Virus record (IMG/VR): IMGVR_UViG_3300028883_000010
Span: 1-59,339 of that record
DNA: 59,339 bases
Direction: 5' to 3' (one strand)
Source of the DNA: a virus
Positions 1 through 53,973 of this stretch are shown piece after piece. A program made the position numbers and the translations under genes. The first letter of the stretch is position 1, and each line of letters begins with the position of its first letter. Below the pieces are notes generated by a model that did no database searches, was not told the DNA's origin, and saw nothing but the letters and a program-made list of their open reading frames with translations.

Positions 1-31
1 GTTGAGATAACTTCTCCGGCAGCTTTTCGTT
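1..31. repeat. Terminal direct repeat, left copy
   Basis: The first 31 bases are identical to the last 31 bases of the window (59309-59339). The coding frame of the tail-fibre gene passes through the repeat without a break when the ends are joined. This is what a circular or circularly permuted genome gives when it is assembled with a short overlap. A true 31-bp physical terminal repeat would be very short for a phage, so an assembly overlap is the likelier explanation. Confidence 0.9.
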
Positions 32-3000: not shown

Positions 3001-4074
3001 GCAGCTTTACCAATCAGGATCGGTAAAAGAAATAGCGCAAAAAGTGGAGACCGACAGTTAGCTGGAAAAATTGCCGAAGTTCGAGTTTCCTATACGAGTC
3101 GTTCAGCAGCATGGGTTAAAGCAACTCATTATTCAGGTACTGACGCCCTTATTACCTTTGGCTCAGAAGAGGCGGAGACCCCGGCTGTACCGGGAACAAC
3201 AGGGGATATCACGGCAACCCTGCCGGCGCTTACCTGTGAGATAAATACCCTTTACAGTGGCTTGAGCGCAAGCCTACCGGCCTTGACCTGTGAGATGGTA
3301 GCGGGCGCCTATATGGCCGCAACCCTGCCAGCGTTGACAGCCAGCATCCAGGCGGACGCATTCAGCTTTTCCGGCGACCTGGTCGACAGTCTCGGCGCCC
3401 TAACCATGACAGGCGTCACCGATCAATACCGGGAGGTCGAGGGCACGCTTCCCGTCATCACATGCGAAATGGCAGGCGTGGCAAACAAGATTGCCATGGC
3501 CTGCGAGCTGCCCGCCCTGACCGCGGCCATCCATGCCGCCGGCCATCTTTCCGCCAATACCCCGGGCCTGGCCATGACCGGGACCGGTTTCAATGAGATT
3601 CTCGCCCAGGTGGCGGCCGAGATCCCCGGGCTTTCCATGCTGGCCCAGGCCGGCGCCCGCATTTCCATTGACCTGGTCTGCCCGGCCGTCGCCATGGTCG
3701 GCAGAAACCAGGTAGTAACGCAGCTTTCAGCCACAGTTCCGGCGCTGCGGGTGTCAATTTCCGGCAACGCCGACAGCGCCCCGGCCATTGCCGCCAGCCT
3801 GCCGGCAATCCGGGCAGCCCTGACCGGCCACAGTAGCGCAGTCGGTGCCATCGCTGCCAATCTTCAGGCCTTGACTTTTTCCGCCACAGCTCAAACCGGC
3901 ATCGTCGGCAACCTGGCAGCCAGCCTGCCGGCGCTCGGCCGCTGCCGTATATCCGCGGCCCCTGGTGGCCCGGCAACCCTTGACTGTGCCTTGCCGGCCC
4001 TGGAACTGCTGGCCGTCGTCAATAACTCGAACAGGGACGCCGTATTGCGGCACGCCCGGGGACAGATCAGATAA
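1..4074 (+). CDS. Tail fibre / receptor-binding protein, main part (5' end at 58949)
   Basis: This is the main part of a 1,477-residue protein whose first 120 codons lie at 58949-59308; position 1 continues that frame. Domains in order are an N-terminal F5/8 type C (discoidin-like) sugar-binding domain ending near base 120, then two tandem copies of a block of about 500 residues (about bases 139-1620 and 1678-3140). Each block has a DUF2341-type start (DFPVM.NL), a second discoidin-like insert and a LamG/concanavalin-like domain (AIDFDG..D). The C-terminus (bases about 3200-4070) is a run of short repeats on the pattern LPALT. Bases up to about 3170 are clearly AT-rich while the LPALT part is GC-rich, so the binding region looks recently acquired. 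These domain types suit host-surface glycan binding at the tail tip. The virion role is inferred. A GTG at 91 is not the true start. Confidence 0.8.
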   Translation, partial: VEITSPAAFRYYRVQILTKQLVPGQSSFAYVGIGEAEFTLSEATVDLKIDHEKIDSTLSDFPVMVNLAAYPEVFTALGEDANRKKITLENASGDALYGEIEHFDYSNKKGILWTKLPSVSDSEDTEFSLVAGAAKAVTAKSVIFDIADNYGYSGVVGIRSVDFYKNDEKITITGSDITAYATTTFSNYDPEWAFVTALSKTGLGSSNSWASDSATIASRLSVVFNTEIEFDKIIINNYHHEGTLTDAGAKNIKINISDDSITDTTYNAAISNSTEIFDGQIAEHAASNVADDQEFPLYVDDTGGWAAQQVWDDNFKAVYHMAQDPSGGSGCILDSTSNANHGTPAGSMLTGDLVDGEFGKALDFDGTDDYIEISDHADFDITDYLTLEAHADINWTTLNGVAGPLIAKSNWASSGYGYLLAANDSALVEAITIQAYKSSDNYITKSQESVSEGWQTICGVYDKDASGTDKIDLFRNGSTTGTASTNNSYDSIGENNLPIRIGRDSGSNNFFYAGKISEIRISDIARSAAWLKATYYSNKDLLVYRDVDIDEDYTKRIRFEINPDLIDSELTDFPVMLNLSSASGISDKDITAIFDELTSDANRFKIKVTTDDGVECPVEIAYWDDTTEKAQLYVKLPTVYADKKTVFYLNYASTASPYYSAKSVIIDFTNNWGASTYTSIRSVEFYKDGVLLPLTQSDYTAYHSSIVTETYNSKYAFDTSLSKVDGWGSTSWVSDSGDYTNQRIICVFNTSIEFDEIVINNNHDSGTRLTETCKDILLYISDDAITDTTYGNAISNSTLLFDGQIPQHVASNIEDPQYTVYGNVGDTSQTASQQVWDDDFKAIYHMSQDPSGGAGCILDSTSNANHGTPLGTMLTGDLVDGPYGKAIDFDGVDDGIDTGLTFSNATGATLEAIASFAENGGTDSEHTILDLDENADVWVLRHGLGKVQSSIKTGNSKLTSDGLNNSQFYGIQATYNQTTHLLYIDGNQVGTDSYTTALDSAALPIRIGKRNSAKSGDRQLAGKIAEVRVSYTSRSAAWVKATHYSGTDALITFGSEEAETPAVPGTTGDITATLPALTCEINTLYSGLSASLPALTCEMVAGAYMAATLPALTASIQADAFSFSGDLVDSLGALTMTGVTDQYREVEGTLPVITCEMAGVANKIAMACELPALTAAIHAAGHLSANTPGLAMTGTGFNEILAQVAAEIPGLSMLAQAGARISIDLVCPAVAMVGRNQVVTQLSATVPALRVSISGNADSAPAIAASLPAIRAALTGHSSAVGAIAANLQALTFSATAQTGIVGNLAASLPALGRCRISAAPGGPATLDCALPALELLAVVNNSNRDAVLRHARGQIR
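139..3140 (+). repeat. Tandem duplication of DUF2341 + LamG block
   Basis: Two blocks of about 1.5 kb, roughly 139-1620 and 1678-3140, encode the same domain order and share long stretches of protein identity. Examples are the segments around QVWDD.FKA.YHM, DPSGG.GCILDSTSNANHGTP and SAAW.KATHYS. The nucleotide sequences have diverged at many third positions, so the duplication is not brand new. Confidence 0.75.
3205..4065 (+). repeat. LPALT-type degenerate repeats in the fibre C-terminus
   Basis: About fourteen short units with cores such as LPALT, LPVIT, IPGLS and VPALR recur every 20-30 residues. Two more units open the next gene (4074), so the repeat array crosses a gene boundary. Regular spacing of a short beta-strand-like core suggests a repetitive fibrous stalk. 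The function is not known. Confidence 0.65.
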
Positions 4075-9525: not shown

Positions 9526-12500
9526 ATGGGATACCCGAGCACTGACGACCTTTTCGCACAGGACCTGGAAACCATCAGCTCAGACTTTGCCCGCCTTACC
9601 GGGAAAACAGACAGCTCCCAGGAGGCCCGGCCCGCCGATTTGACGCCGGCCGAGGCCGCTGATCATCAATTTTTTTCCGAGACATCTTCAAAATACCGGC
9701 AGTTGACCGGCCAGGAGGGAGATCCCTTTGTTCCGGATAGCCAGAAATCCCGCGAACAGCTCGCCAAGGAAAATATGGAAACCCGGAGTGAATTCACGCG
9801 GAATTTGCTTTCCGGCATCGATGACACCCAGGGGCTACTTTATGGCGCCGCCGGCCTGGTGGGCAAGGCATTTCATTCTGACACGCTCAGGGACTGGGGC
9901 TTTGAAAATTACAAGCGCAACATAGAGGAGGCGTCCCTCAACCCGTCCACCTTCAACAGCGTTTCAGAAGTTGACTGGACATCTCCCGGGGATGTCGGTA
10001 CCTGGTTTGCCGGTGTCATTGGTAAGCTGACGCCGACCATGGCCGAGATTATGGCCGCGTCCACCATTGGCACGGTAATCGCTCCGGGCGCCGGGACCGT
10101 CACCGGTGCGTTCAGCCGCGGCATCATTAAAAAGGCCATGCGTAACAAGGTGGCCAAGGCCATGGAGTCCAAGGCCGTCCAGGCCGTAGCAGCTAAATCC
10201 GGAGAGGCCGCAGCCAGGAAGGCGGCCGAGCGCCTGGTAGCCAAAGAGGTCGGCGGTAATATCGGGCTGGTTCTGGGGTCCACGGCCCTGGAGGCCGGCG
10301 GCATGTGGGCGGAAGGCGCCGAGGAATTCGGCGTTGAAAACAGCAATGAGTGGACCGCCGCGGCCCTGGGTCTGCTTTCCGGTGCAACTGAGCTGGTGGC
10401 GCCGTCTGGTACGTTTGTCCGGCGCGCCTTGGGGCTCAAGGAGGTTACCCGGGGTATCACCAAAGAGACCGCTAAGAAGTTGGTCCAGCGGGCCGGCAGC
10501 GGACAATTCATCAAGGCGATGATCAAGGCTGTCCCAGGGACCATGGCCAAAGAGGGAACGCAAGAATTTGTTCAGGAATTTATTTCAACCCTGAATATGT
10601 TTGTTCAGGACCCGGAGGAAAAGCTCTTTTCCCCTGAAAACATCCATCGATACATCGATTCAGCGGCCGCCGGCGCCGCGGCCGGTGTCCTTTTTGGTCT
10701 GGGGGAAGGCTACTCCGGTCATAAATCCCGCCTCAATGAGGCCCGCGACATCCTGGCCCGCCGGCAAGCTGCCGCCGACGCAGAGGAAGACGCGGACATC
10801 GCCGCCGCCGAAGCCGCCGAGAATGGGCCGGCCGCCGGCAAGACTGACGACATCAACGCTCCGGCCAATCCCGAGGCCGCAGCGAACGAATTCACCGACG
10901 AGGAACTTGCAGCAGCGGCCGCGGCCCGGGCAGAAGGAAAGACGGCAGACGCCCGGGCCGCCATGGATCAGGCCAATGAGGTCATGCAGGCGAAACAGGC
11001 ACAGCTCGACAACCTGAGTCGGTTTAAAAATCCCTCCAAGAAACAGCAGGCGCTCATCAAAAAGCTGAAAAAAGAGCTGAACGCCAACTATGGCAGCCCG
11101 GATGCCATGATTATCAATTCCGCCGAAGAATCCGCCCGGGCCTATGAGGATCAGCTGTCAGAAAGTCAAAAGGTTGTCACCCGTCAGAAAACCAAAGATG
11201 CCATTGAGGCCATCATGCAGACGACGGGCAAGTCAGCGCAGCAGGCGGCCCAGGACATCAAAAACGGTGCGGAAATTCATTGGAACCGGATGGTCCGGAA
11301 GGGCGCTCCGGATGCCAAAAAGTTTCAGGAGGAACGCCCGGACCTGGTTTCCCTGATTGACGGCTTGAGGAATGCGCCATCCCGAGAGGCAGCCGAGGAG
11401 GCCATCAAGAATCACAAGCTCGACGAAATCCGGGACAACGTCGGCGGCCGGCTTACAGAGGCCAGCAGCGAGGCGTTGACCCAGGTGCGGCAGCAATACG
11501 AGCATGAGGGCCGGTCCGACCTGGTGGCAATGATTGATTCCGAGTTGAGCACCCGGAATATTGCCACGGCCCTTTCACCGAAAAACAATAAAGAACGGTT
11601 TGTCACTCTTGGCGGCGCCATCCGGGCCATGGGCGGCATCAACCCGGCGGGCTTAAAATCGGATTACCTGGCCCAGTACAAAGACGCCGGCAAGGCCAAG
11701 CTATTCAATAAGGGCGGAGTGGAGATCGAAAAAGCGCAGACGGGTCTTGTGCGGGCCGGCTGGATGCTGCCCAGTGAGGACCTGGCCGGCATTCTGACCC
11801 ACAACCCCGATGCACTGAAGCGCGGCAAGCTGGACGCAGAGCCCAAAACCAAAAACCAGAAGGCGGCCGCGGCCGAGATCGATGAGTCAACCAATGTAGA
11901 CGTTGAGGCGCCCCCGGATTACGACAAGGAAGGCGCCTATAAAAAAGAATTGGCTGGAGACCTGGCAGAAGGCACAGAGGCCACCATGGTCATTGATGGC
12001 CAGTGGGACAAATACAAGGTGGTCGAAAATGACCCCCTGGGCGATGGCGTAACCCTCCAGGACGGCAAACAGATTACCATTCCGGCCGGCAAAGAGGTTG
12101 AGATCCTGGTATCCGACATCAAGGGTATCGAGGCCACAGAGAACGAGCGCGACCAGGTTCACGACTATTCTTCCACCCAAGTTGATATACCGGGGCCGGC
12201 TGCCGACGAGATCCGGGAGCTTGGGCAGCTCATTCCGGATGAGGAGCTTTACACAGACCCCAAAGACCCCTCATACGGCCGCGAAGAAAAGCCGCATGTC
12301 ACGGTAAAATATGGCGTGCACTCGGCAGACCCGAAATCGATTGAATCCGCCCTGGCAGGCGTCGGGCCGTTCAAGGTCACCATGGGGAAGGTTTCCATCT
12401 TTGAAAGCGATGATTACGACGTCGTCAAAGTCGACGTTGAGAGCCCGGAACTGCGCGCCTTGAACAAAAAAATTGCCGAGAGCACCAGCGTTACCGATAC

Positions 12501-15500
12501 GTTTCCGGATTACCACCCGCATGCCACCATTGCCTATGTAAAAAAAGGCGAAGGTCAAAAGTACGTCGGTGAAAACAGCCTCGAAGGCAAAGAAATCACC
12601 ATGAACGCCCTGACCTTTTCCGGCAAGGACGGGAAAGAGTCGGTTTTCGATTTGACAGAGCGCCGGCGGGCAGCCGGAAAGCCGAAGGCTGGCGAACAAC
12701 GCTCCGGCAATGACCGGCGCCAGGATACCGAGTATCGCAAACGCATTGATGAGATGACCCACGATGAGGCCATTGCCGAGCTGAAAAAGGATTCCACCGG
12801 CCTGACGAACCTGTTGTCAAAGCGGGCCTATGAGGAAGATCAAAATAAAAAACCGATCCAAGTAATGTTTGACATGGACGGGCTCGGCTATATAAACGAT
12901 CATGTAGAGGGTGGGCATTCACTCGGAGACAAGGCCATTTCCCTGTTTGGAAGAGCCATTGAAAAAAGCTCACTGGGCAAGGACGGGGTTCATTTTTCCG
13001 GAGATGAGTTCGGCACCCAGGCCGTGAGCTTGGATGAGGTTGAAACGGCCAAGGCCGAAATACGGGCATTCCTGGAGGCCCGCCCGCTTGAAATCATCAT
13101 CGATGACGTAAAATACCATCACGTTTTACAATTCAGCACCGGGACAGGAGACACACTCAAAAATGCGGATAAAAACCTTATCGCCCGAAAAGGCGAAAAA
13201 GAACGAGAAGGCACCCGACCGGCCAAAGGTTCTGGACTCGCGGCAATTACGCGAATTGATAGAGGCCGGGGGGAAGGTGACGTCAGTCAAACTGGAGGGA
13301 GTGGAACTCCTGGAGAAACCGCCGAAGCAGAGCCCGGAAAAGAAGGAGTAGCGCCCGAACCGCCGGCGCCGGCAGATCCCCGGGAAAAATTTACCCAGGA
13401 CATTGAACGGACGGGCTTTGCGATTGACCCGAAGGGCCGGTCCTATAAAATTATGCAATCGGACGCCGGCGGATTCTATGTCCGGATAACGGAAGATGGT
13501 TTCCGCACCGACCTTGGCGGCGATCCCCGGGGTGGCGGCTGGACACTGGGAGAGGCCCAGGCCAAAGCCATTGACCGGGCTTTCCCCGCAAAACCCGCGA
13601 AACCCACCAAAAAAGAAAAGGCCCTGGCAGACTATAAGGCCTACGTCGATAGCCTCACCGATGAGCAGCGCGAGGCCGTCAAGGACCATACCCCAGAAGA
13701 ACCAGCATCGCCCGCCAGTCAGATTTTAAAAATAAAAAAGATGCTGGCAAATCTCAAGGCGCCCGAAAACGTTGAAAGCGCATGGGATAGCCAGACGCCA
13801 GAGTCCCGCGGAATGATTGCTGAAATGTTGGGTATGGTGGCGGCCGGGAGCCCCAGTTCACATTATACAGAAATTGCGTTCAAAAACCTGTCAGACATTG
13901 ACAAGGAGGTTATCACCAAGGCGAAAGACCAGTGGGAGGGCCGCACGTTCTCCAGAATCGCCATCGGTGACAATGTCCAACCGCGCAAGGGCAGCGAGGT
14001 CCCAAAGAGCATGGCCGGGGCCGTCACCCATATCAAGCGGGACTACAAAACCGGGCAGGAAAAAATAAAAACCGAAAATTCTGGGAACCTTTATTTTCAC
14101 AACTACGATCTTGAAAAGGTGAAACGGAAAAAGACGCCGGCTGAGATCGAGGCCGAGCTTGACGACTTTTTCAAAGACGAGCGGGTGCCCGTCGGGTCCG
14201 TCCGGAAAGCATGGGACCGCCTGCCGTATGACGCCCGGCTCAAGGCCATGGAGGCCATTAACGCCCCGTCTGGTATCCATGAATATGTTGCCAGCCGCGA
14301 ATGGGCGGACATCGGCCCGGAGACTCAACGGCGCCTTGCCCGGGACCGTGACAAGTGGATGCCGACCCAGGAGCCGGCCGGCATCAGCATCGATGACGAA
14401 AACGCCGAAAAGGTCGGCAAAGATTGGGATAAGGAACTGACAAAATATGGCCGCCGGCAGGTGGCCTTAAAAATGGGATGGAACAGCTCATCCGCTGAAA
14501 GGATTGCCAAGACCCTATGGCAGCATCTGACAGACGCCGCCAAAAAAGTTTTGATCCGCAGCCATGAAAAATGGGCACCCACCGTAAAGGATAAGACCCC
14601 GGACCATGGGAAACCCGGGGCCAGCGAAAAGCTCTCTTTCTTTATCGGCAAACAGATCGCCGAGGGGAAAACAACATCCTGGCAGGCGCTGTTTAAAGAA
14701 GCCGACAAGGCTTTCGGAGGCACTCAGGCCGCGGGGGCCTATACTCCCAAAGACGCCTATGACGCAATGGAACTGGCCGTCAACCGGTTTATCTCGAAAC
14801 GGCCGAACCTTTATTCGCCGGACACGATATTTGAAGTTGTCGACGCCCAGAAGACCATCACCCGGCTGCAAAACCTGATTTCCCTCCTGCCCACCCAGAC
14901 CAAACGCACCCGGGAAATGGATCAGTTCCAACAATTTTCTACGCCCCCGGGCCTGGCCTATGCTGCAGCATGGGCAGCCCGACCGACAGCAAAAGATACC
15001 GTCATGGAGCCGAGCGCCGGAGTCGGCGGCCTGGCCGTGTTCGGTAAAACTGCCGGTGCCAAAACGATTGTCAATGAACTGAGCCCCAGGCGGGCCGAGC
15101 TGCTCAAGCTGATGGGCTTTGACCGGGTGTTCACCGAGAACGGTGAGCAGCTCAACAACATTTTGCCGGCCGATGTCAAGCCGACCGTCGTCTTAATGAA
15201 TCCGCCGTTTTCCGCCACGGCCGGCCGTACCCAGAAAAACAACACCATGAACGGTGCCCGGCACATTGAGCAGGCCCTGGCCCGGCTGGCGCCTGGTGGC
15301 CGCCTGGTGGCCATTGTTGGCCGCGGCATGGCCGATGACCGGCCGTCCTTTAAAAAATGGTGGACCCGGATGAAAGCGAAATACAATGTCCGGGCAAATA
15401 TAGGGATTTCCGGAAAGGAATACGCAAAATATGGGACCACCTTTGATAATCAAATCTTAGTTATTGACAAAGACGGCCCCACCAATGGTAACATTGTAAC

Positions 15501-18500
15501 CGGGTTTGTGGAGAAATTCAAAGACTTACCCGCCAAACTATGGGAGGTCCGAAATGACAGACCTGCAATCGATCAGGAAGGCCAATCTTCATCCCCTCAA
15601 TCAGAAGATACTGACGTTACTACGCAAGGAGGGAATCCCCCCGCGGACGGATCGGGTCCAGGTCCTGAATCTGCTGGATTGGGCACTGGAAAAGGGCCTG
15701 ATAACGGAGGAAGAACCGGAGGTCTGGAGTCTGGCAACGAGTCTGCCAATAATGAATCTGGATCCAGCGGAACTGATGGAACGGTTAAATCCGGAAGAAA
15801 CGATGACAGCTCAAAGCATCGGCCGGATAAAGACCGCGGAGGAAATGGCCGAGGAGATAGCGTATCTCCTGGAATTAATGACAAAGAATTAAGCCTTGAC
15901 GAGCTTTCCGACCTGTTCGACGAAGTCGCCGCAGAGGAAGGCCTGATTGAAAAGCCGACCGAGGCCCCGGCGCCGCCGACCAGCAAAGGCAAACCCACCC
16001 TGAAAGGCGCCGCAACGCACGCCGGCAAAGGTGCCAAGAAAGGCCTTGAGGCCGTCGCCGACATCCTGAAAGGCCTGAACCAGACCGGCGCCATTGGCGA
16101 TAACCTGCCCCCTTTAATCCATCCCGAGGCCTACGCCCAGGCCAAAGAGCATCTTGCAGAGAGCTACAATGAATTTGTTGCCGCCGGCAACGAAATCAAG
16201 GAATGGATCCGTTATGCGCTCAAACGCCTTACGGAACTGGGCGCCCCTGTTGGTATGTCCAAAAACTGGATACTGAATTTTTATGCCAAGGACCGCCCGG
16301 CCCCGCCAGAAAAGCCCGCCGAAACCGGAGTTGAAAACGTCGAAAACAAAGCCGAGGGTAAACTGACAGATTCCTTGTATGAGGTTTACAGACCCCGGGC
16401 GGCCATCGCCGGCAGCCGGCAGCATCCGACGCCGCTGGTTGAAAGCGCGGCCATGGCTGCCACCCAGGCGCCGCCCATCAATTACAAGCTGAGTATTTCC
16501 AAGGTTGCGATCGAAGGCGATCCGGCGGACCCCTCCAAAGGCATAAGTGATATTCAGCTGGAAGCTATCGCTTACGCCGGCGCTGCCCATGAAAAAATCC
16601 TGCCGAGCGGTGAACGCAAAGGCTTTTTCATTGGCGACGGTACCGGGGTAGGCAAGGGCCGGCAGATTTCCGGCATCATCTGGGACAACTGGAACAAGGG
16701 CCGCAAAAAGGCGGTTTGGATTTCAGAAAAATGGAGTCTGCTGAAAGACGCCAACCGGGATCTGACAAACGTCGGATGGAAAGAAGGCCCGGACCTTTTA
16801 TTCAGTCAAAAAGATACTGATGTGGGCAACGCCATTAAAAAGAAAGAGGGTATTCTCTTTACGGCCTATTCGACCGCGAGGGGTGGGTTTGACAGAATCC
16901 GAGATGACATAAGCGAACACGATACAATCGCCGCCCGGCGCCAGGACAATGATATGTCCATCCGGATCAACCAGATTATCAAATGGTGCGGCAAAGACTT
17001 TGACGGGGTCATCGCCTTTGATGAATCCCATAATATGGCCAATGCCGCACCGACCAAGGGAACCCGCGGGACTAAGGCGGCATCAAAGCAGGCGCTCGCT
17101 GGTATCTACCTGCAAAAGAAGCTGCCCAAGGCTCGTGTTGTATATGTGTCGGCTACTGGCGCCACTGAGGTTGAAAACCTGGTTTATGCCCGGCGCCTTG
17201 GCCTTTGGGGTGCCGAGACCCCCTTCAGAAGCGCCAGGGATTTTGTTTCCAAGATTGCCGCCGGCGGGGTGGCAGCCATGGAAATGGTGGCCGGCAATAT
17301 GAAATCTCTCGGGCTCTACCTGGCTCGGTCCCTGACGTATGACGGGGTCAAGTATGACCGCATGACACACAAGCTCAGCGACGCCCAGGCCAAAAAATAT
17401 AATGAGCTGGCCCAGGCCTGGCAGATTGTTTTGCAAAACATCAACGAAGCCGTTGAGCTGACTGGATGCAGCAAGGGGCAAGCTGCCATGTCGCAATTTT
17501 GGGGCGCCCACCTGCGGTTTTTCAACCAGATCATCACAACCATGGAAATGCCGTCAGTTATCAAGGCGGTTAAAAAAGACCTGGCCGAGGGCCGCACGGC
17601 TGTTTTACAGCTGATCGACACCAATGAGGCCGCACAAAACAGGGCATTAGCGAGTCTGCAGCAAGGGCAAGAGCTTGAAGACCTGGACATTACCCCGCGG
17701 AATGACCTGATTGCCTATCTCGAAAACGGTTTCCCGGTCCAGGAATATGAAACCGTTACCGATGAACACGGCCACGAGGTAAAACAGCCGGTTGTCGATT
17801 CCGAGGGGAAACCGGTTTTGAATGCCGAAGCTGTTCAGATGCGGGATGATTTGATTCTCAGAATCATGTCCATCAAAATGCCGAACGGCCCGCTTGATTA
17901 CCTGCTGAATGAAATCGGCCACGAGAATGTGGCCGAGGTTACCGGGCGCAGCCGGCGCCTTGAGCCGGACCCGGAAACCGGCCGGTTGAAAATTGTCCGA
18001 AGGACCCCAAAACATTCAGAGGCAGAAACAGAGGAATTCGACGCCGGAAAGCGCCGGGTGCTGATTTTTTCCGAGGCTGGCGCCACTGGCCGCAGCTATC
18101 ACGCCGACCGGACCATTGAAAATCAGGAGTTGCGCCGGCACTATCTGGTTCAACCCGGCTGGCGGGCGGACAAGGCTGTCCAGGGACTCGGCCGGACGCA
18201 CCGTTCCAACCAGGCGCAGCCGCCCGAATTTACCTTATGCACTACCGACCTGAAAGCACAGGCCCGCTTTCTGTCATCGATCGCCCGGCGCCTTGATCAA
18301 CTTGGCGCGCTGACAAGGGGCCAGCGGCAGACCGGCAGCCAGGGCATATTCCAGGCCCGGGACAACCTTGAAAATGCATATGCCCGCGATGCTCTCAAAA
18401 CCCTTTTAGAGGATATTCATGCCGGGGATGTCCCGGGGATCACGGTTGACGACGTCCGCGAACAAATGGGGATTGACCTGGAAGCCGGAGACACGCTTCC

Positions 18501-21500
18501 CGACGTGGCGACCACTCAGTTTTTAAACCGCATGCTTTCCATGACGATCGACATGCAAAACTTGACGTTTGACGCCTTCACCAGCCGTATGGACCGAATC
18601 ATTCAGGCCCATTCCGACGCCGGCACGCTTGACGTCGGTATCGAAACAATCACCGGTACGAGCGTCCGGCAGATCGATAGCCAGGTTATCCGAACCGATG
18701 AAACCGGCGCCGAGACCAAATATGTTCAGCTTGACGTTGACAACCCGGCTGCCATCAATGACTTTGATTCCATAGCTGAAATGTTCGCCGGGCGCGGCGG
18801 GTTTGTCAGAAACCTGAAATCCGGGAAGGTTTGGCGGACGTCTCCTGAACGAGACCGCACCACCAGCACCGGCGAAGTGGTCGGCTATCGAATGCTAATT
18901 TCACCTGGCAACACTCATCAGCGAATTGATGTTAACAAGCTAACGCCGGATAAATATGAACCTTTGTCAAAGGTCGAGGCACAGGCTTACTGGGAGGCCG
19001 AATATGAGGCCCTCCCGAAGGTCACGACCGACAAATATCACATCATCACTGGCGCAATCCTGCCTATCTGGGACCGTCTGGGCGGCAAGGCCACGATTTA
19101 CCGATTCCAGACGGACGATGGCAGCCGCTTTCTTGGACGCGCGATTCCGCAAGCCCAGTTGCAAGCCACCATGAGGAGCCTTGACATCGAGGCCGGCAAG
19201 GTGAAATATACCGGCAAACAAGTTGTTGACGCTGCATTGACCCAGGGTACCAAGTTTTCTTTGGAACACAGGTGGTTTATTGAGCCGGTCATGGTTTCCG
19301 GTGACCAGCGCATTGAATTGAAAGGCCCTGATTATGATGACCTGGACTGGATGGACCGCCTTGGTATCATTAACGAGCGGATCGGCTGGCAAGCCCGATA
19401 CTTTGTGCCGACCGACAAGCGTGCAGCCGGCATCATAGATGATGTCATCAATCGCCATCCGGTCATTGCCATTGAAAGCGGCAAGCGGGGCGGCGCCAAT
19501 ATGCGCCTGGATTCGGATACGACTTTTTCCAGGCCGAGCCCGTCGGAGACCGACACCACAAACAAAAGGATAGATGAATATGGCGGGAGGCCGATTTCAA
19601 AAGAAACAAGCCCGTCGCAGCCGGGCAAAGTCACTGAGAATTCAAAAAAGCTCCATGAGACCATCGCCAAGCTGTTTGATCATCTGCCGAAAAACACCTT
19701 CACAGAAGTTGCCGCCGATGACGTCGGCGACCCCTCTACTTCATTTGCTCGAAGACTTGCCGACATCTACGGCAAAAAAATAAGCTTTTTCCATAACGCC
19801 CACCCGGAAACATTCCGCTTTGACGGGGTCTCAACCGGTCCACTCAAAGGGACCGTTTTTGTCAACGCGGATTCCAAAAAGCCTCATCTGGTTATCGCCG
19901 GCCATGAATTTGTGCATGAAATGCGCCGGGATCAGCCGGAGCTGTATCGAGAATTTGCCCGGACCATGGAGGGCATGCTCAAAAACTTCACCGATTTCAA
20001 AGCCTATTTTGACAGCCTCACAACCCGGGACGGCACCGGCAAGCTTTCAGACGACCGGATTTTCGAGGAGCTGCTCGCTGACTTTGTCGGTGAACAGATG
20101 ATGACTAAAAAATTTTGGCGAGATTTCAGCCAGGGGAAACCGTCCCTGTTTGAAAAAATCGCCACCATGTTCATGAATTTCCTGGATAAGGTCCTATCCC
20201 AAATAAAGGTAAGCAAGGGGTCTGAGCAATATTTCAACGACCTGGAGCGGGCCAGAAAGGCCGCTGCCGGCGCCATGTCCGAATATGCCACCCGGCAGGC
20301 CGCCGGCCAGGGCCGGAACAAGACGGCGCTTTCGAACGAAATTGCCGACGTGTGGCATTCGCAAATGGAGGGGGCCCTAGCGCAGAAGCTGCCCGGCAAA
20401 GGCTCGCCGGCACAATTCAAACAGATGATCCAGGCATGGGCCAAAAAGGGCCAGATCAAAGCCGAGGAGCTTGAATGGTCCGGGCTTCTGGACTGGCTGG
20501 ATAATGGCCTCTACGAGAAGCGGCTTGACGATTTAACCGGGGAATTGACAGTCCGGCAGTTTAACGAAAAAGGTGATAATCATTGGCAGGCCCAGGCCAA
20601 GAAGGCTGCCCAGAAAGTAAGCAAGACCGAGGTCATGGACTTTTTGAAATCCAACCGGCTGCAGGTGAAAGAGATCAACCGCGGCGGCCCCGATCCATAT
20701 ACAAGGACGGCCCAGGATTGGCGCCGATACCTGGTCGATGAAATGTATGTGCGCGAAGCCGAAGCCGAAGACATGACCGACCAAGAAATTTATGGTTTCG
20801 TTGGCGAGGAAATCAGCGCCGGAACAATCCACAATACCCGATATGAAAACTATCAAGAGCCCGGCGGGAGAAATTATCGTGAGCTGTTGATCACCTTGCC
20901 GCCCAAAACCCCGGCCGCTGTTACGGCATATCATAAGGCCTTGCAGGATATGGCCAAGAAATACGGTGCCGATTATTTGGAGCTGGCGAGTTTCGGCCAC
21001 GCGCGCGAAAACTTGTTTAAACGGATGCCGACGCTGGAGGTTGCAGATTTTCGTGAAATAGAAGCCGCCTATTTAAAAGCCCGCAACGAATTTGAAGGGG
21101 ACAACTATCAATCTGGGCATTGGTCCGAAAAGAATGTTCTATCCCACGTCAGATTCAACGAAAGAACCGACGCGGACGGGGCGCGGGTGCTGTTTCTTGA
21201 AGAAATTCAATCGGATTGGCATCAGGCGGGGCGGAAGGAAGGGTATGCCAAGGACATAACAGGGTGGAGTGCCGTTCGTACGGGCCGGAAAAATGAAAGG
21301 GGTCGTGCGGAGTGGACCGTCAAAAATCCGGATGGAGATGTCCAAGGCACTGTTTTTGCTATTCGCGAACAAGGCGCGATTAGGAGAGTGGCAAAAGCCC
21401 CGGTTAACGCTCCCCCAGACGCCCCCTGGAAAAAGACCTGGCCGATAAAAACCTTTCAGCGCATGGTGCGGTACGCGGCGGAGAACGGGTTTGATAAAAT

Positions 21501-24500
21501 CGCCTGGACACCCGGGGAGGTTCAGGCCGCCCGGTACGACCTGAGCAAGCATATCAAGGAAATCAATTACGAACAGGATACCGACGGGTCCGACAATTAC
21601 GACCTCCAGGCGATAGGCCATGACGGTAAAGAGGCCTTTTCCGAGGAAGACATCACCATCGCCCGTATCGAAGAACTGGTCGGAAAAGAAATTGCCCAGA
21701 AAATCCAGTCCGGTGAAGGCCGCGACGATTCGAGCGAGTACCGGAGTTGGCGTTCTCTTTCTGGTCTTGATCTGAAAGTCGGCGGCGAAGGCATGAGGGA
21801 ATTCTATGACAAGATCCTACCCGCCGAGGTCAATAAATTCTTTGGTAAGAAAGCTTGGGGCAAGGCCCGGGTGGGGACGACCGAGGTCATAATCCCCAAA
21901 GCGCCGAAACTCCCGCCAACGCATAAACCATACCCCCTTGAGGTGTGGTCTCTACCCATAACCCCCGAAATGAGAGCTATGGCCCTGTTCGAGGGTATGC
22001 CGACCTTTGCCGGGGTGCCTAAGAAATCGGTAAAGGCCTATAAGCTGTTCCGGACCCTGAAAAGCAAGCCCGGTGAGCTATTCCCCCTCTTTATCGGTAA
22101 AACAAAGCCCGTCGCGGTAGGCAAATGGGTTGACGGGGAGTTCATCCCCACCAAAGGCTTTGCACAGCGCCCGGGATGGCACGCCGGCGCTCTGCCGATC
22201 GCTCCGCATTTGCGGCAGAAGGCAACCGGCAAAATTGCGCCTGATCGGGTATGGGCGGAAGTCGAAATGCCAGCGGACAAAGATTGGCAGCAGACAGCCG
22301 ACCAGAGCCCGACCCGGGACATCCGGGACCAAATCCCCGAAGATGGCCATTATCGATTCAAAACCAGCAAGCTGCAGGGCGGCGCCTGGATGATCGGCGG
22401 CGGAGTCAAGGTCAATCGGATCTTAACCGACTCCGAAGTTGCACAGGTGCTGCGCGAGGCTGGATTCGCAGACGACGAGATCACAAACGAACTGCATGAC
22501 CCGAAATCCTTAGACGAGGCCCCGACTTTTTCCCGCCCAGGCCCCCAGAAGGTTTCAGACGTGCTGCCCGCGGAAGTTGCCAGGCGCATGGCCGCGGCCA
22601 AGGGTGTTGACAAGACCCGGTTCATGGACCGTCTGAAAGCTGCCGGCCGCAAGATCAAAGAGGAGGCCGCCCACTTCCCGGGGCTCACCCGGATAGAGGA
22701 CGTCAATCAGCGGGCCGTTTACAAGGAGATCCTGCGGCAGCATCAGGAAATACCGAGCAAGGCCCAGGACGCGGCCGCCCGGGCCATCAAGGGCTTTCTG
22801 GCAGACCTGACGCCCGAGGAATACGATATGTATTCACTCCGGATCATTCTTGGCGACGAAATGCGGTGCATTGAAGACGGGCAGCGCACAGAAAAGAACC
22901 TGCCATTTGGATTCAAATCGTTTGCCGAGCTTGGCAATAGTTTTGATGGCCTGAACAGCATCATCAACCATAACCCCAGGGTAAAAAAGGCCCTGGCCAA
23001 ACGGAAGGCTTTTCAACGCGATTTGGCACAGAGCCTGGTTGACATGCAGGTCTTGAAACCGGAAATTCTCAAATCGGACGAATATTTCCACCACCAGGTA
23101 CTTGAGTACTGGAATGCAAAGGAGGCGGAATTCAAAGGCATCGGTGTTTCGTCCAGTGACGCCCGGTCTCACTGGCGGCCCTGGATGGCCAGCCGGAAGG
23201 ACAGCGCCAAGGATTACAACACGGAATATGCAGAGGCCGAGCTGATGACAGTGGCCCAGATGATTGGCCAGGTTGAAACGGCAAAGAGCCTGCGGCGTCT
23301 ACGGCAGGAATCCGACATTCTCGGCGACCTGAATTCGATTGCCAAACAGAATAACCATCAAGCCGTCTGGGATGCGTTCCAGTTCAACCCGGCGACGTCA
23401 GACCCCAAAGACGATCCATTTTTACCCTACCGGCAGGCCATCGCCATGGGCATTCAAAACCTGGTGAAGATGGCCGGCAAGGAACAACTTGAATATGACA
23501 GCGAGTTTCAGGACGTTGTTGACGATCTGATGGACCAATACTATGCCGGCAAGGATGAGGAATACGATTACCCTGGCAAGATCATGGACTCCGGCCGTTT
23601 CTTTCATTTTCTGAGTCACCAAATCAATGCCAAGCTCAACGGGTCCGGGCACGCGGCCACCATCTTCAAGGGCATCAAAAGCCGCGAACAGTTTACCAAG
23701 GATGTTTTGGGAGACGCCTTCCAGACCGGTCTGGACATCATCCCCGAGGGATACACCCGCTGGCAGCCGGACAAAAACAAGGGCTGGTTCTGGACAAACT
23801 CCATTGCCGACAACGTCCTTGAAAAAGTTGTGTCCGGTGAAAAATCCCTGGAGGATAAAGACGTTCGTAAGGTCCTGGCCAAGGGCCGGAGCGTTTACTG
23901 GGTAGTGCCCGAGGGCCTGGCCGATACCATGGACAATTTCCGGCCGGTCCAAAAGGAAGGCATGTTCGGAAACATGCTGACGAACACCATGCAGGCATGG
24001 AAACAGTACATCCTGATGAACCCCCTGTCGGTGGTCAAATACAACGTCAACAATATGTCCGGCGACATGGACGCGGTCCTTGCCTGCGATCCTCAGATAA
24101 TGAAGTACGCCAAAAAGGCGCTTTCCGACCTGCGGCCATGGATGAAGCACGATCCGGCAGCCAGCCGGGCCCTAGACGAAGCCCGGGACCTTGGCGTCAT
24201 TGGCAGCGGGTTTTCCGTCCAGGAGGTTGAAGACACCCTCAAGGTTCTCGGGACCGATCGACTTTTGAATGACGTCTTTCTCGGAAAAAGCCCGGGGCTC
24301 ACTCAGAAATATTGGACAAGCGTCAAAACTTTGACGACCCTGCGGGAGAACATGCTTCGGCTGGCCGCCTTCCGGTATTTTCAGGATGCCATCAAAAATC
24401 GGGAGCGCGGGACCCTGAAAAATTACGGGGCCTCGAATCCCAAAGAGGTTGACGCCCTCATCAGAAACGGCATGACCAAGGATGCCGCCGCCAAGCTGGC

Positions 24501-25569
24501 CCGGGAACTTCTGGGGGACTACGGCGCCATTTCCCGGCATGGCGAATATCTCAGATCCCATATGATCCCCTTTTATAGCTGGCTGGAAATCAACACTCCT
24601 CGCTATGTCTATATGATGCGGAATCTGAAATACAATTCCGGCGAGGTCACCGGCGGCAAGGCCCGGATTGCCGGGACCCTGGCCAAACGGGGCAGCGTGT
24701 TTGCGCTCAAAGCGGGCATGCTGTTTGCGGCCGTGAGCCTTTATAACGCCGTCGTCTGGCCGGAGGAGGAGGAGGAACTCGGGGAGGCCGGCCGCCGGCA
24801 GCTGCATATTATTCTTGGTCGGCGGGCGGACGGATCCATTATCACCCTTCGGTTTCAGGGGGCCTTGTCAGATGCGCTTTCCTGGTTCGGCGCCGAGGAT
24901 TTTCCGAATGACGTTCGAGAGGTCACCCAGGGCAAGGCTTCCATAGGCGACAAACTCAAAGAGGCGTCAAAGGCCGTTGCAAACAAGGGCCTGCAGGGAT
25001 TCCGGCCGGATGTGAAAATCTTATTTGAAAGCCTCACCGGGAAAAAGCTTTATCCGAATGCGTTTTCCCCGCGGCCGGTCCGGGATAAAGTCGAAAACAT
25101 CCTATCAACGGTCAAGCTGAACCTGCCCTATCAGTGGGCGATGGGCAGACCGCACCGGGGCTCCAGTGTCCCGGAACAGCTGGCCAACGATTTGACGAGT
25201 ATCCTGCTTTACACGACCGAGCCAGGGGTACAGGCTTATTACGATGCCCGCCGGATGGTATTTGACTGGCAGGATAAAAAGGGCATTGAAAAGAACTATG
25301 GGCAGCCGACCAGCAAGGGAAACGCCCTGTACTACTACAAACAGGCCATGAAATATGGCGACCTGCGGGCGGCCAAAAAATACCTGAAAGAATATCAGAA
25401 GCTCGGCGGCACAAAGACCGGCCTGAAACAGTCTATCCGGATGATGCACCCGCTTTCCGGAATCAAACAGACACAGCGGGCCGCATTTGTCCGCGGGCTG
25501 TCGGCAAAAGAGCGGGCCACAGTGGAACGCGGTATCACCTGGTACCGAAAAACATACATGAAGAATTAA
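9526..25569 (+). CDS. Giant polyvalent virion protein (2H phosphoesterase, GGDEF, DNA methyltransferase, strawberry-notch helicase, zincin)
   Basis: One open frame of 5,347 codons with AGGAG before the ATG. Domains, by residue: Ala/Gly-rich hydrophobic stretches (about 100-400); a 2H phosphoesterase with paired HVT (about 923) and HAT (about 999); a GGDEF domain with SGDEF (about 1158); an N6-adenine methyltransferase with EPSAGVGG (about 1827) and NPPF (about 1892); a Gly/Ser/Asp-rich linker (about 2010-2122); a strawberry-notch SF2 helicase with Walker A GDGTGVGKG (about 2371), DESH (about 2499) and GLGRTHRSNQ (about 2888); a zincin HEFVH (about 3460); then polyvalent-protein domains around EEIQSDWHQ (about 3900) and RPGWHAG (about 4216); and a C-terminal region with a membrane-like segment near 5060. 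Methyltransferase plus this helicase is the combination in P1 DarB, which is injected to block restriction. Injection here is inferred. Two +1-frame nested genes lie inside. Confidence 0.9.
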   Translation: MGYPSTDDLFAQDLETISSDFARLTGKTDSSQEARPADLTPAEAADHQFFSETSSKYRQLTGQEGDPFVPDSQKSREQLAKENMETRSEFTRNLLSGIDDTQGLLYGAAGLVGKAFHSDTLRDWGFENYKRNIEEASLNPSTFNSVSEVDWTSPGDVGTWFAGVIGKLTPTMAEIMAASTIGTVIAPGAGTVTGAFSRGIIKKAMRNKVAKAMESKAVQAVAAKSGEAAARKAAERLVAKEVGGNIGLVLGSTALEAGGMWAEGAEEFGVENSNEWTAAALGLLSGATELVAPSGTFVRRALGLKEVTRGITKETAKKLVQRAGSGQFIKAMIKAVPGTMAKEGTQEFVQEFISTLNMFVQDPEEKLFSPENIHRYIDSAAAGAAAGVLFGLGEGYSGHKSRLNEARDILARRQAAADAEEDADIAAAEAAENGPAAGKTDDINAPANPEAAANEFTDEELAAAAAARAEGKTADARAAMDQANEVMQAKQAQLDNLSRFKNPSKKQQALIKKLKKELNANYGSPDAMIINSAEESARAYEDQLSESQKVVTRQKTKDAIEAIMQTTGKSAQQAAQDIKNGAEIHWNRMVRKGAPDAKKFQEERPDLVSLIDGLRNAPSREAAEEAIKNHKLDEIRDNVGGRLTEASSEALTQVRQQYEHEGRSDLVAMIDSELSTRNIATALSPKNNKERFVTLGGAIRAMGGINPAGLKSDYLAQYKDAGKAKLFNKGGVEIEKAQTGLVRAGWMLPSEDLAGILTHNPDALKRGKLDAEPKTKNQKAAAAEIDESTNVDVEAPPDYDKEGAYKKELAGDLAEGTEATMVIDGQWDKYKVVENDPLGDGVTLQDGKQITIPAGKEVEILVSDIKGIEATENERDQVHDYSSTQVDIPGPAADEIRELGQLIPDEELYTDPKDPSYGREEKPHVTVKYGVHSADPKSIESALAGVGPFKVTMGKVSIFESDDYDVVKVDVESPELRALNKKIAESTSVTDTFPDYHPHATIAYVKKGEGQKYVGENSLEGKEITMNALTFSGKDGKESVFDLTERRRAAGKPKAGEQRSGNDRRQDTEYRKRIDEMTHDEAIAELKKDSTGLTNLLSKRAYEEDQNKKPIQVMFDMDGLGYINDHVEGGHSLGDKAISLFGRAIEKSSLGKDGVHFSGDEFGTQAVSLDEVETAKAEIRAFLEARPLEIIIDDVKYHHVLQFSTGTGDTLKNADKNLIARKGEKEREGTRPAKGSGLAAITRIDRGRGEGDVSQTGGSGTPGETAEAEPGKEGVAPEPPAPADPREKFTQDIERTGFAIDPKGRSYKIMQSDAGGFYVRITEDGFRTDLGGDPRGGGWTLGEAQAKAIDRAFPAKPAKPTKKEKALADYKAYVDSLTDEQREAVKDHTPEEPASPASQILKIKKMLANLKAPENVESAWDSQTPESRGMIAEMLGMVAAGSPSSHYTEIAFKNLSDIDKEVITKAKDQWEGRTFSRIAIGDNVQPRKGSEVPKSMAGAVTHIKRDYKTGQEKIKTENSGNLYFHNYDLEKVKRKKTPAEIEAELDDFFKDERVPVGSVRKAWDRLPYDARLKAMEAINAPSGIHEYVASREWADIGPETQRRLARDRDKWMPTQEPAGISIDDENAEKVGKDWDKELTKYGRRQVALKMGWNSSSAERIAKTLWQHLTDAAKKVLIRSHEKWAPTVKDKTPDHGKPGASEKLSFFIGKQIAEGKTTSWQALFKEADKAFGGTQAAGAYTPKDAYDAMELAVNRFISKRPNLYSPDTIFEVVDAQKTITRLQNLISLLPTQTKRTREMDQFQQFSTPPGLAYAAAWAARPTAKDTVMEPSAGVGGLAVFGKTAGAKTIVNELSPRRAELLKLMGFDRVFTENGEQLNNILPADVKPTVVLMNPPFSATAGRTQKNNTMNGARHIEQALARLAPGGRLVAIVGRGMADDRPSFKKWWTRMKAKYNVRANIGISGKEYAKYGTTFDNQILVIDKDGPTNGNIVTGFVEKFKDLPAKLWEVRNDRPAIDQEGQSSSPQSEDTDVTTQGGNPPADGSGPGPESAGLGTGKGPDNGGRTGGLESGNESANNESGSSGTDGTVKSGRNDDSSKHRPDKDRGGNGRGDSVSPGINDKELSLDELSDLFDEVAAEEGLIEKPTEAPAPPTSKGKPTLKGAATHAGKGAKKGLEAVADILKGLNQTGAIGDNLPPLIHPEAYAQAKEHLAESYNEFVAAGNEIKEWIRYALKRLTELGAPVGMSKNWILNFYAKDRPAPPEKPAETGVENVENKAEGKLTDSLYEVYRPRAAIAGSRQHPTPLVESAAMAATQAPPINYKLSISKVAIEGDPADPSKGISDIQLEAIAYAGAAHEKILPSGERKGFFIGDGTGVGKGRQISGIIWDNWNKGRKKAVWISEKWSLLKDANRDLTNVGWKEGPDLLFSQKDTDVGNAIKKKEGILFTAYSTARGGFDRIRDDISEHDTIAARRQDNDMSIRINQIIKWCGKDFDGVIAFDESHNMANAAPTKGTRGTKAASKQALAGIYLQKKLPKARVVYVSATGATEVENLVYARRLGLWGAETPFRSARDFVSKIAAGGVAAMEMVAGNMKSLGLYLARSLTYDGVKYDRMTHKLSDAQAKKYNELAQAWQIVLQNINEAVELTGCSKGQAAMSQFWGAHLRFFNQIITTMEMPSVIKAVKKDLAEGRTAVLQLIDTNEAAQNRALASLQQGQELEDLDITPRNDLIAYLENGFPVQEYETVTDEHGHEVKQPVVDSEGKPVLNAEAVQMRDDLILRIMSIKMPNGPLDYLLNEIGHENVAEVTGRSRRLEPDPETGRLKIVRRTPKHSEAETEEFDAGKRRVLIFSEAGATGRSYHADRTIENQELRRHYLVQPGWRADKAVQGLGRTHRSNQAQPPEFTLCTTDLKAQARFLSSIARRLDQLGALTRGQRQTGSQGIFQARDNLENAYARDALKTLLEDIHAGDVPGITVDDVREQMGIDLEAGDTLPDVATTQFLNRMLSMTIDMQNLTFDAFTSRMDRIIQAHSDAGTLDVGIETITGTSVRQIDSQVIRTDETGAETKYVQLDVDNPAAINDFDSIAEMFAGRGGFVRNLKSGKVWRTSPERDRTTSTGEVVGYRMLISPGNTHQRIDVNKLTPDKYEPLSKVEAQAYWEAEYEALPKVTTDKYHIITGAILPIWDRLGGKATIYRFQTDDGSRFLGRAIPQAQLQATMRSLDIEAGKVKYTGKQVVDAALTQGTKFSLEHRWFIEPVMVSGDQRIELKGPDYDDLDWMDRLGIINERIGWQARYFVPTDKRAAGIIDDVINRHPVIAIESGKRGGANMRLDSDTTFSRPSPSETDTTNKRIDEYGGRPISKETSPSQPGKVTENSKKLHETIAKLFDHLPKNTFTEVAADDVGDPSTSFARRLADIYGKKISFFHNAHPETFRFDGVSTGPLKGTVFVNADSKKPHLVIAGHEFVHEMRRDQPELYREFARTMEGMLKNFTDFKAYFDSLTTRDGTGKLSDDRIFEELLADFVGEQMMTKKFWRDFSQGKPSLFEKIATMFMNFLDKVLSQIKVSKGSEQYFNDLERARKAAAGAMSEYATRQAAGQGRNKTALSNEIADVWHSQMEGALAQKLPGKGSPAQFKQMIQAWAKKGQIKAEELEWSGLLDWLDNGLYEKRLDDLTGELTVRQFNEKGDNHWQAQAKKAAQKVSKTEVMDFLKSNRLQVKEINRGGPDPYTRTAQDWRRYLVDEMYVREAEAEDMTDQEIYGFVGEEISAGTIHNTRYENYQEPGGRNYRELLITLPPKTPAAVTAYHKALQDMAKKYGADYLELASFGHARENLFKRMPTLEVADFREIEAAYLKARNEFEGDNYQSGHWSEKNVLSHVRFNERTDADGARVLFLEEIQSDWHQAGRKEGYAKDITGWSAVRTGRKNERGRAEWTVKNPDGDVQGTVFAIREQGAIRRVAKAPVNAPPDAPWKKTWPIKTFQRMVRYAAENGFDKIAWTPGEVQAARYDLSKHIKEINYEQDTDGSDNYDLQAIGHDGKEAFSEEDITIARIEELVGKEIAQKIQSGEGRDDSSEYRSWRSLSGLDLKVGGEGMREFYDKILPAEVNKFFGKKAWGKARVGTTEVIIPKAPKLPPTHKPYPLEVWSLPITPEMRAMALFEGMPTFAGVPKKSVKAYKLFRTLKSKPGELFPLFIGKTKPVAVGKWVDGEFIPTKGFAQRPGWHAGALPIAPHLRQKATGKIAPDRVWAEVEMPADKDWQQTADQSPTRDIRDQIPEDGHYRFKTSKLQGGAWMIGGGVKVNRILTDSEVAQVLREAGFADDEITNELHDPKSLDEAPTFSRPGPQKVSDVLPAEVARRMAAAKGVDKTRFMDRLKAAGRKIKEEAAHFPGLTRIEDVNQRAVYKEILRQHQEIPSKAQDAAARAIKGFLADLTPEEYDMYSLRIILGDEMRCIEDGQRTEKNLPFGFKSFAELGNSFDGLNSIINHNPRVKKALAKRKAFQRDLAQSLVDMQVLKPEILKSDEYFHHQVLEYWNAKEAEFKGIGVSSSDARSHWRPWMASRKDSAKDYNTEYAEAELMTVAQMIGQVETAKSLRRLRQESDILGDLNSIAKQNNHQAVWDAFQFNPATSDPKDDPFLPYRQAIAMGIQNLVKMAGKEQLEYDSEFQDVVDDLMDQYYAGKDEEYDYPGKIMDSGRFFHFLSHQINAKLNGSGHAATIFKGIKSREQFTKDVLGDAFQTGLDIIPEGYTRWQPDKNKGWFWTNSIADNVLEKVVSGEKSLEDKDVRKVLAKGRSVYWVVPEGLADTMDNFRPVQKEGMFGNMLTNTMQAWKQYILMNPLSVVKYNVNNMSGDMDAVLACDPQIMKYAKKALSDLRPWMKHDPAASRALDEARDLGVIGSGFSVQEVEDTLKVLGTDRLLNDVFLGKSPGLTQKYWTSVKTLTTLRENMLRLAAFRYFQDAIKNRERGTLKNYGASNPKEVDALIRNGMTKDAAAKLARELLGDYGAISRHGEYLRSHMIPFYSWLEINTPRYVYMMRNLKYNSGEVTGGKARIAGTLAKRGSVFALKAGMLFAAVSLYNAVVWPEEEEELGEAGRRQLHIILGRRADGSIITLRFQGALSDALSWFGAEDFPNDVREVTQGKASIGDKLKEASKAVANKGLQGFRPDVKILFESLTGKKLYPNAFSPRPVRDKVENILSTVKLNLPYQWAMGRPHRGSSVPEQLANDLTSILLYTTEPGVQAYYDARRMVFDWQDKKGIEKNYGQPTSKGNALYYYKQAMKYGDLRAAKKYLKEYQKLGGTKTGLKQSIRMMHPLSGIKQTQRAAFVRGLSAKERATVERGITWYRKTYMKN
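13163..13351 (+). CDS. Nested small gene, +1 frame inside the polyvalent gene
   Basis: A 62-codon frame with its own ATG and an AGGAG 12 bases upstream (13146-13150), ending in TAG at 13349-13351. Its product is basic with a credible amphipathic core (VLDSRQLRELIEAGGKV, then VTSVKLEGVELLEKP). The main frame over the same bases is low-complexity (Gly, Thr, Glu, Pro) linker just after the GGDEF domain. Complex protein in the alternative frame and linker in the main frame is the usual look of overprinting. It may be chance, since GC-rich genes often have long shadow frames. No family is recognised. Confidence 0.4.
   Translation: MRIKTLSPEKAKKNEKAPDRPKVLDSRQLRELIEAGGKVTSVKLEGVELLEKPPKQSPEKKE
15554..15892 (+). 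CDS. Nested gene, +1 frame inside the polyvalent gene
   Basis: A 112-residue frame with ATG at 15554, a GGGAGGT ribosome site at 15542-15548 and a TAA stop. The product reads like a folded helical protein (LNQKILTLLRKEGIP, VLNLLDWALEKGLITEEE, MAEEIAYLLELMTKN) with acidic and hydrophobic periodicity. The main frame here (about residues 2010-2122) is almost pure Gly/Ser/Asp/Asn/Pro linker between the methyltransferase and helicase modules. It uses the same +1 frame as the 13163 nested gene. I judge it a real overprinted gene or the relic of a separate gene kept when two neighbours fused. Function unknown. Confidence 0.55.
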   Translation: MTDLQSIRKANLHPLNQKILTLLRKEGIPPRTDRVQVLNLLDWALEKGLITEEEPEVWSLATSLPIMNLDPAELMERLNPEETMTAQSIGRIKTAEEMAEEIAYLLELMTKN

Positions 25570-51294: not shown

Positions 51295-51584
51295 TGGCAG
51301 CCAAGAAAACGACCACGAAGCCCAAGACCACCCTGCATGTCAAGTGCCCGAACTGCGGCGGAATTTATCACCGCATCACCAAATCATATCGGGCCAGACG
51401 CTCGGCCAACCCCGGCATGCTGGAGCTGCTGCCGAAATATGCCGCCTATGGATGGACGCCGCCGCCGCCGGACCCGAGCGCGGGTTATGGCTGCTTGGAA
51501 TGCCCGAGCTGCGGGGCCGCCCTGGCGCCGTCCGGGAAGCTGAAAACCGTCCGGGTAAAGGTGGAGACCGATGAAAAAGTATAA
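51294..51584 (+). CDS. Zinc-ribbon protein before portal
   Basis: A 96-residue basic protein. CPNCGGIYHRI near residue 18 and CLECPSCGAAL near residue 66 give a four-Cys (or more) zinc site. It overlaps the portal gene by 14 bases. Role unknown. Confidence 0.65.
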   Translation: MAAKKTTTKPKTTLHVKCPNCGGIYHRITKSYRARRSANPGMLELLPKYAAYGWTPPPPDPSAGYGCLECPSCGAALAPSGKLKTVRVKVETDEKV

Positions 51585-53463: not shown

Positions 53464-53520
53464 GACAAACAGGAACGTTTTAAAAGTGAGGTTTTGTCTT
53501 AACGAAAGGAGAGCGCACCA

Positions 53521-53970
53521 TTGAAGATTTTTCTTGGAGGAACATGCAACGGGTCCAGATGGCGGGAGGCCGGATTCATTCCATACCTGGAACCCGGGAT
53601 AGAGGCCTTCAACCCGGTTGTTGACGACTGGAACGAGGAAGCCCAGGAGCGCGAGCGGCACGAACGGGAGCATTGTGACTTTTGCCTGTACGTCATCACT
53701 CCGCTGATGTCCGGGGTCTATTCGATCGCCGAGGCCATCGAGGATTCCAACAAGCGGCCGGGAAAGACCGTCTTTTGCCTGCACAACGCCGATTACGCCG
53801 GGTATCTGGACGCCTCAAAGCCCCCGCTGCCAGAAACAGAAATCAATTTTTCAGAATCTGAGCTCAAGAGCCTGGATCAGGTCGGCCGCATGGTTCGGCG
53901 CAATGGCGGCCGGTATTTCGACAGCATCAAGACCGCCGTCGATTTTTTCAATTCACAAATCGAGGAATAG
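53521..53970 (+). CDS. Nucleoside 2-deoxyribosyltransferase-like protein
   Basis: A 149-residue protein starting at TTG 53521 with AAAGGAG upstream. The start KIFLGGTCNGS, Asp pair in VVDDWNEE and CDFCLYVITPLMSGVYSIAEAIEDS fit the nucleoside deoxyribosyltransferase fold, with the Glu of SIAEAIE in the catalytic place. It lies oddly between portal and scaffold genes. It could act on nucleotides or NAD-like compounds. The substrate is not readable from sequence. Confidence 0.75.
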   Translation: MKIFLGGTCNGSRWREAGFIPYLEPGIEAFNPVVDDWNEEAQERERHEREHCDFCLYVITPLMSGVYSIAEAIEDSNKRPGKTVFCLHNADYAGYLDASKPPLPETEINFSESELKSLDQVGRMVRRNGGRYFDSIKTAVDFFNSQIEE

Positions 53971-53973
53971 CAA

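Follow-up and report, generated by a model that had tools for sequence, protein, structure and literature searches.

GGDEF domains have already been reported in the polyvalent proteins of phages, with a suggested role in signaling, and delivery together with the DNA has been proposed for such proteins (Iyer et al. 2017; PMC5512222). The giant prophage protein WP_004096050.1 of Acetonema longum is an example. Phages also carry the domain as a protein of its own. In several records, the standalone protein of Pseudomonas yuaviruses (gp43 of phage MP1412; phage AN14) is labeled a diguanylate-cyclase GGDEF protein, and the Bordetella vojvodinaviruses LK3 and CN1 encode standalone GGDEF proteins as well. 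LK3 lysogens of Bordetella bronchiseptica are reported to overproduce biofilm, although the connection to the GGDEF protein that LK3 encodes is one of correlation only (PMC8471281). Among bacteria, the obvious points of comparison are the cyclases PleD, WspR, DosC, and DgcR.

The window analyzed here, the whole stretch of 59,339 nucleotides, belongs to a temperate tailed phage that encodes an integrase, RecT-like and DnaD-like proteins, an anti-repressor, a terminase, a portal, and a head protein. A giant protein of this phage carries a genuine, phage-specific GGDEF domain. Its open frame of 5,347 aa occupies positions 9526 to 25569 on the plus strand, as do all of the features within it described below, and its sequence places it in the polyvalent class, being giant and holding several unrelated enzymatic domains. 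A 2H phosphoesterase domain lies just upstream of the GGDEF domain. Farther along are a probable DNA methyltransferase domain with an NPPF motif (positions 15199 to 15210; motif search, with a weak PF05175 match at E = 0.037), a strawberry-notch type helicase (AAA_34 plus Helicase_C_4, positions 16420 to 18648; PF13872, E = 7.8e-106, and PF13871, E = 4.4e-81), and HEFVH, a possible zincin protease motif found by an HExxH motif search only (positions 19903 to 19917). Compared by its published description, the Acetonema protein is alike in joining GGDEF to a helicase, a methyltransferase-like domain, and possibly a protease motif, and in its proposed mode of delivery (PMC5512222). The window protein differs from proteins of this type in having a 2H domain immediately before GGDEF, a helicase of the strawberry-notch type, and a GGDEF domain that lacks the lysine equivalent to PleD K332.

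Parts of the window protein recur in the polyvalent open reading frames (ORFs) of other viral contigs. Its C-terminal parts are 34 to 46% identical to a 4,039-aa protein found at L020/L021. There, one or more of the shared blocks, among them the counterpart of window residues 694 to 865, lie on the opposite side of GGDEF. The domains of these giant proteins are shuffled modules.

The GGDEF domain, including an N-terminal helix and a C-terminal tail, extends from position 12727 to position 13230 (residues ~1068 to 1235), as delimited by profiles, relatives, and an AlphaFold model. The initial annotation had placed a complete diguanylate-cyclase-like domain at 12730 to 13200, and its position was accurate; the motifs that it quoted (STGLTNLLSKRAY, FDMDGLGYINDH, GHSLGD, SGDEF, and ADKNLIARKG) all lie in the one plus-strand frame of the giant ORF. 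The profile scores of the window segment itself are below the curated cutoffs, both for Pfam GGDEF (E = 1.8e-4; 21.8 bits against 23.8) and for TIGR00254 (E = 2.1e-5; 24.3 bits against 37.4). The Pfam score is the lowest among the members scanned individually, whereas all 14 relatives scanned in this way exceed the Pfam cutoff. With the window domain alone as the query, a search of viral contigs gave no match, and when it was compared as one sequence with PDB chains, the sole match was to a bacterioferritin and carries no meaning.

Because the window's own Pfam and TIGR00254 matches are thin by themselves, relatives were sought. A tblastn search of phage records led to the standalone yuavirus protein (E = 3e-12 at best, 29 to 34% identity), and that protein, followed by alignments, served as the query on viral contigs. 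These alignment-based scans recovered 27 loci with the same domain, some of them near-copies. Most of the relatives on viral contigs lie in large ORFs (968 to 4,039 aa, some clipped by contig ends), but three (L008, L030, and L035) are standalone, at 158 to 184 aa from stop to stop. Metagenome-assembled bacterial genomes contributed two further members, L037 and L038, which were the only ones to show the phage-type signature among those examined in a genome scan that otherwise returned mostly ordinary bacterial GGDEF proteins. Plasmid matches were likewise ordinary cyclases. Of the matches in human faecal “phage” records, the four inspected in full resemble the usual sensor cyclases or response regulators of bacteria, and they served only as a bacterial outgroup.

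The family alignment has 27 rows and a mean column identity of about 40%, and every row matches Pfam GGDEF (E ≤ 1; best, 6e-19). An N-terminal helix segment precedes the D.LTG..NRRA motif, and the C-terminal signature reads K..RE..G.RA.RGE.PPG; this helix and this tail are common to the standalone forms and the giant-protein forms. The standalone forms, including those of the yuaviruses, have ~20 fewer residues before the last strand. In two yuaviruses, the standalone gene adjoins an anti-restriction gene. In four relatives (L018, L023, L024, and L038), the same protein also contains an inorganic pyrophosphatase domain, with variable spacing and order; such an enzyme would drive a cyclase reaction toward its product.

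A tree of 52 domains separates 29 phage-type rows from 23 bacterial rows with support of 100/99. The bacterial domains were chosen for convenience and come mostly from rumen and gut Firmicutes, and a wider sample could place some bacterial GGDEF domains inside; relative to the cyclases sampled, the phage-type domains form one clade in this tree. The window domain branches first under midpoint rooting, which was used for drawing only, and its branch is not unusual in length. The yuavirus proteins share with it the clade, the active site, and the C-terminal signature but differ in being single-domain proteins of about 157 aa that are shorter before the last strand and retain the K332 lysine. That polyvalent proteins contain GGDEF domains, and that yuavirus proteins are named diguanylate cyclases, was already known; what is new is that both groups belong to a single clade, that the clade conserves its active site, and that the window copy has lost a lysine.

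Structure prediction agrees with the profiles. An AlphaFold model of the window domain built with the family alignment has a pLDDT of 92.1 and a pTM of 0.84, similar to the model for the domain of relative L024 (92.4 and 0.83). Its listed structural neighbors are solved GGDEF proteins (Z = 12.5 to 15.3), and among viral models the Bordetella phage CN1 GGDEF protein gives the best named match. A profile of the 27-row family also matched solved diguanylate cyclases in the PDB (best E = 3.3e-17). The predicted fold of the window domain is therefore that of a GGDEF domain, as had been proposed from the motifs. The initial annotation had named two outcomes that would speak against it, a profile search or model without a cyclase fold and loss of the catalytic residues in all relatives; neither occurred, as the fold was found and the relatives keep those residues.

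Active-site positions were assigned from the residue list for PleD (PMC6629876) and the structure of DgcR (PMC8041772). The two metal ligands, at PleD D327 and D/E370, correspond in the window to D1116, the first Asp of a DMD motif (residues 1116 to 1118; positions 12871 to 12879), and to D1160 of the signature loop, and both are identical in 27/27 members. The loop itself, SGDEF (residues 1158 to 1162; positions 12997 to 13011), fits the signature [G/A/S]G[D/E]E[F/Y] (motif definition, PMC6456294), with G, D, and E in 27/27 and S in 26/27; the initial annotation had thus correctly described both the metal-binding Asp and the loop as kept. The guanine-binding residues (PleD Asn335 and Asp344) are Asn1124 and Asp1135, in the segment IND...GHSLGD (positions 12895 to 12930). 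Asn is present in all 27 members and Asp in 25, the other two having Asn instead. The second lysine (PleD Lys442, contacting the gamma-phosphate) is Lys1222, at the start of the tail KGEKEREGTR (positions 13189 to 13218), of which K, G, and R are conserved in 27/27. Near the position of Arg446, also a gamma-phosphate residue, the family has R..R and the window has K at the first of these, with an ambiguous register in this changed tail.

The window copy departs from its relatives chiefly at one catalytic position. The lysine of PleD K332, which belongs to the DxDxFK motif and acts on the alpha-phosphate held by the partner subunit, is present in the other 26 aligned members; the sole exception is the window, with Gly1121 (ggc, positions 12886 to 12888). 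It is one of the active residues by which GGDEF domains have been called functional (PMC6629876). The LTG motif has become LTN, and the alignment places two extra residues ahead of GH..GD, between the two guanine-binding positions. Overall, the window departs at 5/25 near-invariant columns, and only L036 is more deviant (6/27). Calling the domain complete, as the initial annotation did, overstates the case in view of the lysine, the LTN, and the two extra residues. Set beside PleD, WspR, DosC, and DgcR, the window domain has the same predicted fold, metal Asp, guanine-binding Asn and Asp, [S/G]GDEF loop, and second Lys, whereas it lacks an input domain of the usual type, has another C-terminal tail, falls in a separate clade as sampled, and has lost K332. 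With its ordinary branch length and most active-site residues kept, the copy looks altered rather than plainly decayed. Computation thus shows to which family the sequence belongs, which fold is predicted for it, which residues are conserved, the clade, and the absence of the lysine.

The neighboring 2H phosphoesterase (2'-5' RNA ligase superfamily, Acb1-like) spans positions 12211 to 12558 (residues 896 to 1011) and matches PF13563 at E = 4.1e-13. It resembles the anti-CBASS phosphoesterase Acb1 in having both HxT motifs (HVTVKYG and HATIAY) and in exceeding the cutoff of 27 for Pfam Acb1 (PF23474) when scanned alone (30.4 bits), although the score falls to 26.3 within a long segment and the general family of 2'-5' RNA ligases scores higher. 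The idea that 2H and GGDEF form a conserved pair was rejected. The flanks of 23 GGDEF relatives (up to about 750 to 800 aa) contained no Pfam 2H domain, leaving the window as 1 of 24, and the giant protein of L118 has a 60% identical 2H domain with no GGDEF domain beside it. Since the domains are shuffled modules, the pairing should not be overread. According to a review, Acb1 requires adenosine in its substrate (PMC10419184), so c-di-GMP would probably not be attacked by a 2H domain of the Acb1 type.

The genome setting bears on how the protein might reach the host. A 31-base direct repeat at both ends of the window (positions 1 to 31 and 59309 to 59339) suggests a closed circular contig, and its roughly 59.3 kb probably make up the complete genome. 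On such a circle, the giant gene comes after the head genes and those presumed to encode the tail. Coinjection of the giant protein with the phage DNA is plausible, given its polyvalent class and the place of its gene, which closes the series of structural genes. In the region from 51571 to 56134, the portal and major head protein are about 40% identical to those of MetMV, a Methanosarcina virus known from metagenomic data in which a giant gene (9 kb) also comes after the structural run, and the large terminase is nearest to those of Marinitoga phages (48 to 49%). A large ORF that is open at the contig start (positions 1 to 4074) encodes laminin-G-like lectin and DUF2341 domains and is possibly a receptor-binding or tail protein.

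Activity, product, dimerization, ejection, and host effect are what we infer from here on. Our preferred reading, to which we give a probability of roughly 0.55 as a whole, is that the family makes c-di-GMP, that the window copy binds GTP but cyclizes it poorly or not at all, that the protein is packaged and ejected, and that the domain is a mobile module, passed from one giant polyvalent protein to another and present by itself in yuavirus-type phages. A family domain would bind two Mg-GTP across a homodimer and form c-di-GMP, which would disturb the cyclic-dinucleotide pool of the host, either soon after infection or during lysogeny. In the window phage, the module follows the Acb1-like 2H phosphoesterase, and the protein that holds both is likely to be packaged and ejected. 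Because the active site of the clade is almost invariant, its function is probably conserved, with c-di-GMP as the likely product: the metal Asp, guanine-binding Asn, GDE loop, and second Lys are unchanged at a mean column identity of about 40%, as would be expected if the site is under constraint to work. The base-selecting residue is Asp and not Ser, in keeping with the use of GTP only and, therefore, with c-di-GMP (PMC6456294). For the window copy, GTP binding is likely and cyclization doubtful, since the alpha-phosphate lysine is a glycine; the copy could have weak cyclase activity or could bind GTP only. Counting against the preferred reading are the sub-cutoff scores and the departures at near-invariant columns of the window copy, as well as the lack of a visible dimerization partner.

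Two other readings concern the window copy. In one, its GGDEF domain has been repurposed or is decaying, binds only GTP or c-di-GMP, and serves the giant protein as a nucleotide-sensing switch or a sink. Receptor-like GGDEF domains in bacteria provide a precedent, and the missing K332 lysine, altered LTG, loop insertion, and lowest individual Pfam score are all in keeping with it, but the retained metal Asp, guanine-binding Asn and Asp, SGDE, and second Lys speak against it, and plain decay is at odds with a branch that is not unusually long; we regard it as a tentative possibility. The initial annotation had raised, as an alternative, the idea of a nucleotide-binding relic, which may apply to the window copy but not to the family. 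Its main proposal, a nucleotide cyclase, accords with the catalytic residues kept by the family, whereas the window copy, alone of 27 without the lysine and among the two most deviant members, accords with it less well. That this copy nevertheless tolerates the loss of the lysine, is an active cyclase, and, along the lines of the initial annotation, delivers c-di-GMP on entry is unlikely: it keeps the predicted fold and the majority of its catalytic residues, but the residue it lacks is on the active-residue list (PMC6629876), and each of the other 26 members in the alignment has it.

The product and the fold admit further explanations. The family could make another nucleotide that competes with defense signals, whether cGAMP, the product of Hypr enzymes, or one that is linear or mixed. 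The adjoining Acb1-like domain would suit this, as would the reviewed case of a phage nucleotidyltransferase product that competes with c-di-GMP at TIR-STING (PMC10419184). However, the cGAMP-making Hypr enzymes have Ser at the base-selecting position (PMC6456294), where the window has Asp1135 and the clade has Asp or, in two members, Asn; Hypr identity was rejected on this residue, and the broader proposal seems quite improbable. A chance or distant resemblance, with the domain belonging to another palm-fold group such as the minimal CRISPR polymerases, is very hard to credit. One member of 27 has a weak mCpol match (E = 0.081), but the Pfam GGDEF matches of all 27, on which an mCpol/Cas10 identity was rejected, and the GGDEF proteins found as PDB profile matches and structural neighbors point elsewhere. 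Bolder than any of these, and a long shot, is the proposal that a single polypeptide destroys adenine-containing defense signals through 2H and makes or holds a guanine-only signal through GGDEF, rewriting host nucleotide signaling on entry, with phages maintaining a monophyletic family of cyclic-dinucleotide synthases mostly in giant injected proteins.

The clade joins the GGDEF parts of polyvalent proteins to the small “diguanylate cyclases” of the yuaviruses, two groups kept apart in the literature consulted, and the window copy is a natural variant without the trans-acting lysine. Because cultured yuaviruses carry the intact standalone form, an effect of phage GGDEF proteins on host c-di-GMP can be tested. 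If true, control of c-di-GMP by a phage at entry would link the control of biofilm formation and motility with infection and lysogeny.
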